Of a DNA stretch of 35,039 nt, positions 3,450 to 35,039 are shown in pieces. The notes below the pieces were generated by a model that worked only from the letters and a program-made list of their open reading frames with translations, did not search any database and was not told the DNA's origin. Both the position numbers and the translations under genes were made by a program. This DNA is from Candidatus Endomicrobiellum pyrsonymphae (lineage in GTDB: Bacteria > Elusimicrobiota > Endomicrobiia > Endomicrobiales > Endomicrobiaceae). The stretch's first letter is position 1, and every line of letters begins with the position of its first letter. The DNA is taken from NCBI GenBank assembly GCA_020328045.1, contig JAIXMY010000004.1, positions 1 to 35,039 of the forward strand, given 5' to 3'.

Positions 3450-3650
3450 TTAGAAGCCATATGGCATAATCTTTTTCATAGTTTTCATATCTGTATCTGC
3501 AACTATCACAGACTTTCTCGATTTTCTATTTTGATTACCGGAATCTCCAGTCATAAGATGCCTCTGTCCGGGTTTTTTATACTTAACTTTCCCTGTTCCT
3601 GTGACTTTAAAGCGCTTTTTTGCGCCACTATGCGTTTTCATTTTAGGCAT
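3450..3650 (-). CDS. rpmI: 50S ribosomal protein L35
   Basis: At 66 residues it is the normal L35 size. It starts MPKMKTHSGAKKRFKVTGTG and has KPGQRHLMTGDSGNQNRKSR, both typical of the family. The ATG at 3648-3650 is chosen because GGGAG lies just upstream. An ATG-less seven-codon extension would not match the family. It is a small basic 50S protein, between infC and rplT as in most bacteria. Confidence 0.96.
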   Translation of the reverse strand: MPKMKTHSGAKKRFKVTGTGKVKYKKPGQRHLMTGDSGNQNRKSRKSVIVADTDMKTMKKIMPYGF

Positions 3651-33764: not shown

Positions 33765-34181
33765 TCAGTTGTTTTTATTAACATTTACACGTGGCAAAGC
33801 TTGGAATTTTGAACTTGCTTTTTCCTCCAGTTCATCCATATCTATATCTTCTCCATAGCAAAGTTCCTCTACAAATTTCTCAGCTTCATCTACTTTCGTG
33901 CAGTAGTGGGCTCTGTCAATATCATTAGCTGCCTCTTCTGATACACTATGATCACATCCCCACGTTTTTGCACATTTTTCATGTTCTCCTTTTATATAAC
34001 GTGCCTGCATACAGTTCGCTCGAGAGTTTATATAGTTTTTCTGAGCTGCTGCACAATTAATTGTAATTGGTGGATCAAAAACTGGACATGTTTTAAATTT
34101 TTCAGCTCTACTAACCCCAGCAAAACAAAAACACAAAGCAAGTACTAAAACAACTTTTGTTACATCTTTAAATCTAATCAT
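33765..34181 (-). CDS. Exported Cys-rich protein of unknown function
   Basis: A 138-residue protein with a signal peptide ending near GVSRA (residue 26). The mature part has seven Cys (32, 43, 57, 70, 76, 94, 108), no hydrophobic segment, and an acidic C-terminal stretch (GEDIDMDELEEKASS). Several Cys suggest disulfides in the envelope or outside, which would suit the CcdA/thioredoxin genes nearby; this is inference. Its ATG overlaps the stop of a 51-codon gene by 8 bp, so translation is coupled. No family recognised. Confidence 0.72.
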   Translation of the reverse strand: MIRFKDVTKVVLVLALCFCFAGVSRAEKFKTCPVFDPPITINCAAAQKNYINSRANCMQARYIKGEHEKCAKTWGCDHSVSEEAANDIDRAHYCTKVDEAEKFVEELCYGEDIDMDELEEKASSKFQALPRVNVNKNN

Positions 34182-34329: not shown

Positions 34330-34654
34330 TTAACTAGACTATGTGAATGTAGAGGTCTATTGTAAAACTTTTGTGAAATCATTTTGTGTCTTTTTTAAGA
34401 AATGTTACATGTGGATTGTTAAATTTTATGTTGATGTGAATTCAATAGTTATCCAAACTATTGGTGAGAAAAGAATATAGAACTTTTTTTATTTGACTGC
34501 TACTTGACAATTTTTATGCTTGTTTCTGTTTGATTCTGCTACTTGTAAGAGAATGTTACATTTTTTCCATGTGGTTTGTCAAATTTAAGATACAAAATAT
34601 TTACGAAATCTTTGGAACTTTGTTCCTTATGATTCTTAGCTTTTCCCTTGCAGA
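34189..34654 (-). repeat. Duplicated upstream module, copy B2
   Basis: Homologous to 30803-31174 with several indels. The central palindrome AATAGTT/AACTATT is at 34444-34462, and a minus-strand TTGACA is at 34577-34582. It contains one extra 15-bp hairpin unit at 34614-34628 absent from B1. It lies directly upstream of the Cys-rich gene and includes the 51-codon ORF. Confidence 0.8.
34614..34628 (-). repeat. Single 15-bp micro-hairpin insertion
   Basis: On the minus strand this reads AAGGAACAAAGTTCC, identical to unit three of the tandem array at 34801-34815. The flanks GAAATCTTT and ATGATTCTTA are contiguous in copy B1 (31141-31159), so this is a clean 15-bp insertion or deletion. Confidence 0.85.
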
Positions 34655-34712
34655 CCCGTATTATATCAAATCAAATTCTTAATTTATAATTCAACCCTAA
34701 AATCAAACAAAG

Positions 34713-34820
34713 ATGACAAACAAAAATCAATCAAAAACTCTCAAAAAACGGCTAATAGGACTCTATAATAAAGGAGCTAAGCTCCAAGAGCCAATGGCTC
34801 AAGGAACAAAGTTCCAATGA
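34713..34820 (+). CDS. Possible 35-residue ORF containing the hairpin array
   Basis: ATG 34713 opens MTNKNQSKTLKKRLIGLYNK, and the array then codes pentapeptides GAKLQ, EPMAQ, GTKFQ before TGA 34818-34820. There is no ribosome site. The 15-bp period equals five codons, so units could be added without shifting the frame. Translation is unproven. Confidence 0.25.
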   Translation: MTNKNQSKTLKKRLIGLYNKGAKLQEPMAQGTKFQ

Positions 34821-34830
34821 ACAAAATTCA
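34771..34830. repeat. Tandem array of four 13-nt hairpins, period 15 bp
   Basis: Units start at 34773, 34788, 34803 and 34818, each preceded by AA: GGAGC-taa-GCTCC, GAGCC-aat-GGCTC, GGAAC-aaa-GTTCC, TGAAC-aaa-ATTCA (last pair of the fourth mismatched). Stems differ between units but keep pairing, so what is repeated is the architecture rather than the sequence. Confidence 0.85.
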
Positions 34831-34937
34831 AAGACTTTTCAGATTAATACAAAGATTTTTATACGCGAATCACGCATGCGTATATTTTCTCGTCGGATAG
34901 CAAAGATTTTTCAGACTAGTATAAAGATTTTTTATAC
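34829..34937. repeat. 36/37-bp direct repeats around a palindromic spacer
   Basis: CAAAGACTTTTCAGATTAAT... (34829-34864) and CAAAGATTTTTCAGACTAGT... (34901-34937) are near copies, both ending TTTTTATAC. The spacer has ATACGC...GCGTAT and the perfect palindrome ACGCATGCGT (34872-34881). A protein-binding or recombination site is possible. Confidence 0.55.
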
Positions 34938-34942
34938 TGCAG

Positions 34943-35039
34943 CTACAACCTCTCTTGCAATATCTTTCTCGTCCCCAAATCTGTTTTCAACGCCGCCATC
35001 ATTCTTTCCTCAAGCATCCTGCCATTTTCGCCATATTGC
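34943..35039 (-). CDS. C-terminal end of an unidentified gene running off the window
   Basis: One minus-strand frame stays open from the window edge to TAG 34943-34945 (YGENGRMLEERMMAALKTDL, then TRKILQERL). A second frame over the same bases reads GVENRFGDEKDIAREVVAAV and stops at 34932, but it has a stop near 35010. Either could be the true end, or a frameshift joins them. Too little is visible for a family. Confidence 0.35.
   Translation of the reverse strand, partial: QYGENGRMLEERMMAALKTDLGTRKILQERL

Follow-up and report, generated by a model that had tools for sequence, protein, structure and literature searches.

Tandem 15-bp hairpins that keep their pairing but not their letters in Candidatus Endomicrobiellum pyrsonymphae and its relatives

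Our data point to a family of very short hairpin units in Candidatus Endomicrobiellum pyrsonymphae in which pairing is retained rather than sequence. Positions 34771-34830 of the window (the whole 35,039-nucleotide stretch of DNA analysed here) form a genuine array of 15-base hairpins, and many more such arrays exist in this bacterium and its relatives. Each unit consists of a hairpin of 13 nt, in most cases with a C-NNN-G loop, and a spacer of about 2 nt, giving a length of about 15 bp. Some units stand in tandem and others are scattered, and they are found both between genes and, in frame, within them; copies and orthologues differ by whole numbers of units, and the stems differ on both sides.

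The four consecutive 5-3-5 hairpins with AA spacers and exact 15-bp starts described in the initial annotation are present (Table 1). The array at 34773-34830 comprises three perfect hairpins and one with four of five pairs, starting at 34773, 34788, 34803, and 34818. Its score of 19/20 pairs is the best of any four units in phase 15 in the window and is reached at the array only, the maximum in 300 dinucleotide shuffles being 17. The claim that chance is very unlikely holds for the window, in which arrays with at least 19 of 20 pairs are expected about 9e-6 times, but not at database scale, with about 66 expected in 264 Gb. At that scale, therefore, the window array alone proves little, and it is the other arrays that supply the proof. 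An Rfam search of the window returned tRNAs only, and the array had no match to any known structured RNA family. The frame said to be stop-free over units 1 to 3 is indeed open there, but unit 4 adds a stop to it.

Table 1. Features at and around the hairpin array in the window
Feature	Positions	Strand	Remarks
Downstream gene, 138 aa, small protein, signal-peptide-like start	33765..34181	-	Start and upstream region common to C51 gene, mature part different
Left repeat module	34600..34772	.	At other loci, different hairpin arrays follow its end (CGGCTAATAGGACTCTATAATAAA)
Further single unit AAGGAACAAAGTTCC within left module	34614..34628	-	
Unit 1: AA + GGAGC.TAA.GCTCC, perfect	34771..34785	+	Also in C51; in C46 with one mismatch
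Unit 2: AA + GAGCC.AAT.GGCTC, perfect	34786..34800	+	Identical in C46; GAGTC.AAT.GGCTC in C51; first unit in C89
Unit 3: AA + GGAAC.AAA.GTTCC, perfect	34801..34815	+	Recurs in C51 and within C30 coding arrays
Unit 4: AA + TGAAC.AAA.ATTCA, 4/5 pairs	34816..34830	+	Last unit of C51 identical
Right repeat module	34830..35039	.	Holds 3' end of minus-strand gene; copies on C11, C95, C119, C12
Upstream gene, C-terminal end (...QYGENGRMLEERMMAALKTDLGTRKILQERL stop)	34943..35039	-	Cut off by contig end; stop at 34943-34945

The genome (1.25 Mb) is assembled in 122 contigs, of which the window is C69, a contig that ends 209 bases past the array. Two dispersed repeat modules meet at the array: matches to the left module end inside it, and those to the right module begin at 34830, so that the boundary of the right module is the end of the array. 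It is placed between two minus-strand genes, one with its stop at 34943-34945 and the other, encoding the 138-aa protein, with its start at 34181. No NCBIfam match was found for the 138-aa protein. This gene and a gene on C51 (locus L014) share the same start (MIRFKDVTKVVLVLALCF) and about 600 bp upstream, and the mature parts of the two small secreted-type proteins differ, a pattern as if a promoter and signal-peptide cassette had been reused.

Further arrays with different compensated stems are found on at least five contigs of the same genome (C51, C46, C52, C85, and the phage-like C30). In C51 and C46, the left flank seen in the window is followed by longer arrays with other stems, and in C52, C85, C89, and C35, it is followed by yet other units or by remnants; the array of C89 begins with the unit that is unit 2 elsewhere. 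Unit number is strongly variable among copies of one module. C30 encodes a capsid protein with 28-30% identity to Bdellovibrio phage capsids and has PHROGs matches to a head protein and a neck protein. Its arrays lie both within open frames and between consecutive genes, there immediately ahead of ribosome-binding sites. One stretch has five units on the exact 15-bp beat, with stems GGGAC, GGGAC, GGGAC/GACCC (one mismatch), GAATC, and GAGTC. Steps are 12 or 15 in the coding arrays, with 13, 14, 16, and 17 also found between genes; a lone step of 10 in a coding stretch is an overlapping chance match.

The excess over shuffled sequence that would be expected of such units was found locally but not in bulk. 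In 220 kb of the genome, we counted 353 hairpins of the 5-3-5 type versus 376 in shuffles, whereas 11 kb around three array loci held 61 versus 15. Three-base loops closed by C-G are preferred at these loci (46 of the 61 hairpins, versus 2.5 in shuffles). The units of this genome are therefore concentrated in phage-like, mobile, or repeated DNA and show no bulk excess, as judged against a background sample that covers, outside the array loci, about a fifth of the genome.

That structure is kept rather than sequence, as the initial annotation had proposed, is supported by a pairing test and by an alignment of homologous positions with changes on both sides. To make the pairing test noncircular, every CNAAG core in four array loci of the genome was taken, not only those picked for pairing. 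Fully complementary 4-base flanks, with 10 different arms, surround 31 of these 140 cores (22%), versus 15 of 1601 (0.9%) elsewhere in the sampled genome. Unique cores have a mean of 1.84 of 4 pairs, compared to 1.15 when the right arms were re-dealt (maximum of 1.47 in 2000). Furthermore, the first unit beside the shared flank could be aligned in six copies, with stems GGAGC, GGGAC, or GAGCC. In this alignment, which is small and was chosen by flank and not by pairing, 96.7% of the cells are paired, three pairs are changed on both sides (the C89 row could reflect deletion of unit 1 and not a rewritten stem), and covariation is 0.733, versus 0.325 in shuffled alignments and no more than 0.27 in slid controls. 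The stem is the variable part; the loop and its closing pair are steadier, and the spacer is mostly AA. One-sided mismatches occur alongside perfect stems, as in GAGTC.AAT.GGCTC of C51 and GGGAT.AAA.GTCCC of C85, and therefore pairing also decays.

When 295 genomes of the phylum were scanned with a two-unit pattern, the genome studied here had 24 matches and no control match. Relatives of the same family followed with 11 (G194), 5 (G177), and 2 each (G154, G143, and G185). Outside the family, counts were near the control level, and we therefore make no claim beyond it except for Dependentiae. A scan of a genome collection returned four matches. The one in Dependentiae (SOKE01000024.1, locus L059, minus strand, around 3464-3510) is convincing as a genuine array: three compensated units (GGAAC, GGGAC, and GAAAC, with loop TAA) stand in frame in a helicase-like gene, here in another phylum. 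Those in Treponema and Lachnospiraceae are possibly genuine, and the one in Planctomycetota was discounted as low-complexity coding sequence. Viral contigs searched with two array patterns and the C30 capsid yielded no relatives, plasmids yielded no matching arrays, and in the literature on Endomicrobium, we found no account of such an array.

The suggestion that units of five codons could be tolerated in genes is borne out in the relatives, in which conserved genes carry in-frame units in exact steps of +15 bp. They are found in rlmI-like, radical-SAM, recQ, and tyrA-like genes (names read from the protein sequences, not database assignments) of other genera of Endomicrobiaceae, and three orthologue series were compared in genus g21. 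The rlmI-like gene of G194 reads GTA AAA GGG ACA ATG TCC CAA GGA GCG AAG CTC CTG, and that of G154 reads GTA AAA GGA GCT AAG CTC CTG, a short form also present in G177 and G150. Compared to its three relatives, the gene of G194 is longer by exactly 15 bases, which form a hairpin adjoining an older hairpin. The inserted unit (GGGAC.AAT.GTCCC) differs from its neighbor (GGAGC.GAA.GCTCC), which is easier to reconcile with a copy brought in from elsewhere than with local duplication. The radical-SAM gene has two hairpins in G194 and none in four relatives, in which it is 15 bases shorter. In recQ, there is no hairpin in G150, GAGAG.GAA.CTCTC in G154, and four units with +45 bases in G177, where an inverted loop, TTC, is seen beside GAA; G194 has GGAAC.GAA.GTTCC in nearly the same place as, and with equal length to, the hairpin of G154. 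The encoded peptides differ by gene (GTMSQ in rlmI, QERSS in recQ, and GDNVP in the radical-SAM gene). By inspection, 9 of 11 genes of relatives have the purine-rich arm leading on their coding strand; in the window array, this arm leads on the strand opposite that of the genes. The part of the G194 sample that reads N was excluded from the conclusions.

Other repeats were seen in the same genomes. Different species have different repeats in the tyrA-like loop, where three unrelated repeat types in three species (L145, L207, and L208) mark a hot spot of in-frame repeat insertion. In the mfd-like gene of G194 (L132), in-frame peptides such as RQILKQVQNDKQKQRRHPELVSGS and STLHSPLSTL represent longer repeats inserted in a conserved gene. 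Another type of variable-hairpin array has a constant spacer, which is TGATG in G177:C6:168-240 (L189) and ATGATAC-like in G194:C102 (L135:1200-1400); an example is TGTCCC.TGC.GGGACA TGATG TGCAC.TGC.GTGCA TGATG TTTCC.TTT.GGAAA. Dispersed 19-bp hairpins (GTTTTCGCAAAGCGAAAAC and GTTTCGGCAAAGCCGAAAC), often paired, are found in G177:C1 and C8 (L184 and L191); they are REP-like and again have C-NNN-G loops.

The explanation that best accounts for these data, which we put forward tentatively, is a 15-bp hairpin unit that is gained and lost whole, stays palindromic through template-switch correction, and need not have a function. The mini-hairpin would fold in single-stranded DNA at the fork, and the polymerase would copy one arm from the other; such template switching, or quasipalindrome correction, would turn a one-sided mutation into a two-sided one. 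C-GAA-G and similar loops form very stable DNA mini-hairpins, and this stability would favor fold-back copying. Template switching is documented to produce perfect stems as well as compensatory changes of several bases, and thereby to make and keep hairpins (PMC8794818), and it has been proposed for coding palindromes in the mitochondrial DNA of Nematomorpha (PMC6649704). Spread between loci, on the other hand, needs recombination, duplication, or an enzyme, and the units may be duplicated in tandem, recombine with one another, and be transferred as copies. The chief reservoir would be phage-like and repeated DNA, and in tolerant stretches of proteins units can persist because one unit equals five codons; no function would be required of them.

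Two species have hairpins of equal length but different stems at one site of recQ, and a third has none, which is the pattern that turning existing sequence into a hairpin would leave. However, loops are mostly of one orientation (NAA or AAT) and only some are inverted, although switching between strands should invert them, and neither the purine-first arms on one strand nor the C-G closing pair is predicted by correction alone. No event with one arm visibly copied into the other was seen, nor a close pair with a single inferred event; the species compared have about 75-88% protein identity at these genes, and therefore, several steps may be hidden. A bolder reading, which we regard as unlikely, is a repeat inherited as a shape: a five-codon, 15-bp unit would multiply and insert precisely, and its stem letters would be continually rewritten by fold-back copying. 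If true, no smaller self-spreading unit of DNA would be known, and this one would have no conserved sequence.

The arrays might instead be selected RNA (or DNA) structures, serving as terminators, 3'-end protectors, or insulators between codirectional genes, with compensatory changes fixed by selection. We consider this rather unlikely. Consistent with it, either strand of the window array folds better as a single strand than all of 200 shuffles (z of -4.8 and -4.7), a terminator-like match lies at 34785-34773 on the minus strand, which carries both flanking genes, and arrays of the phage-like contig stand just before ribosome-binding sites. Units also lie in frame within coding regions, both conserved ones and those of low complexity, in which a terminator would do harm, and the strong variation in unit number among copies of one module likewise speaks against selected structures, as does the variation of loops, spacers, and orientation relative to genes. 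It is doubtful, too, that an enzyme acting in trans moves the unit as a tiny mobile palindrome, in the way proposed for REP/REPIN elements (RAYT transposase) or cyanobacterial small dispersed repeats (SDR). The exact 15-bp insertion beside an older hairpin in rlmI, the recurrence of a 13-mer (GGGACAATGTCCC) at several places in G194, and the dispersal of units in unrelated genes would agree with such mobility. However, a Y1 transposase (PF01797), which is present in G177, G154, G143, and G017, was not found in the genome studied here (G000) or in G194 (only 70% complete), the two richest genomes found; moreover, the stems lack the sequence conservation expected of a recognized substrate, and no conserved flanking motif was seen.

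Protein-level selection of a pentapeptide repeat of the KEQSS or GTKFQ type, with palindromes as a by-product, is very improbable. EQSS-like coding repeats do occur in C30 and in a Lachnospiraceae locus, but frames differ between genes and units are common between genes; this reading was rejected because intergenic arrays with compensated stems were found. Chance, or an artefact of amplification or assembly, has the least probability of all, next to nil. The assembly does hold long fold-back palindromes at some contig ends (G000:C110:1-160 and the start of G000:C51 [L014:1-200]), and there is another in G103:C93 (L225); these are probably amplification or assembly chimeras, and since the assembly is fragmented and contains them, C110 and the long G103 palindrome were left out of the evidence. 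The short units, however, are seen again in independent genomes, where orthologues carry them in frame and in exact 15-bp steps, and they show covariation; the orthologue series and the covariation test led us to reject an artefact.

Short palindromes are usually found by sequence, and therefore, a repeat preserved by pairing only would escape ordinary repeat annotation. If template switching keeps the units, natural bacterial arrays would record that mutation process directly. The in-frame steps of five codons show how hairpins can enlarge proteins, and a genome family with zero to several units at one gene position makes the process testable.

Several known systems share some of these features. 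Rickettsia palindromic elements (RPE) are palindromes scattered between genes and also inserted in frame within genes of a host-associated bacterium (PMC10969869, PMC3733652), and in-frame palindromic insertion within conserved genes is likewise found here. However, the RPE is about 150 bp long with a conserved peptide, whereas our units are 15 bp and tandem, have no conserved stem or peptide, and are read in several frames. REP/REPIN elements are small hairpins that are sometimes clustered and sometimes intragenic (PMC3733652, PMC3116915). REPs, at 20-40 bp, have conserved GTAG or CGTC tags, in contrast to the differing stems and 15-bp period seen here without a conserved tag; GTAG families go with a Y1 transposase (RAYT), which the genome studied here lacks. 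Palindromic amphipathic repeat coding elements (PARCEL) are similar as tandem coding repeats with dyad symmetry and mobile-element association (PMC2996958), but they encode an amphipathic protein motif of 25 residues, whereas the 15-bp (five-codon) units have no motif, lie in different frames, and are often intergenic. In the repetitive hairpin-forming elements of sponge mitochondrial DNA, hairpin families occur in tandem and within genes (PMC2800124); there, the stems are conserved and the loops vary, whereas here the stems vary with compensation. Template-switch mutations are similar in that a single event yields compensatory changes of several bases and a perfect new stem (PMC8794818, PMC6649704), but the published cases concern single stems or long coding palindromes, and our literature search found no description of tandem hairpin arrays with a fixed 15-bp beat.

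Nearest in spirit, by analogy, may be the cyanobacterial SDR. According to Elhai (2008), SDR of 21-27 nt reportedly form families that share a hairpin backed by compensatory changes and are perhaps the smallest mobile elements. A common hairpin with compensatory changes is found here as well; one precise 15-bp insertion was seen, in the rlmI-like gene. The present units differ from the SDR so described in being 15 bp long, tandem, in frame in genes, and variable within one array. Given these differences, we place the array in none of the RPE, REP, sponge element, and SDR families.
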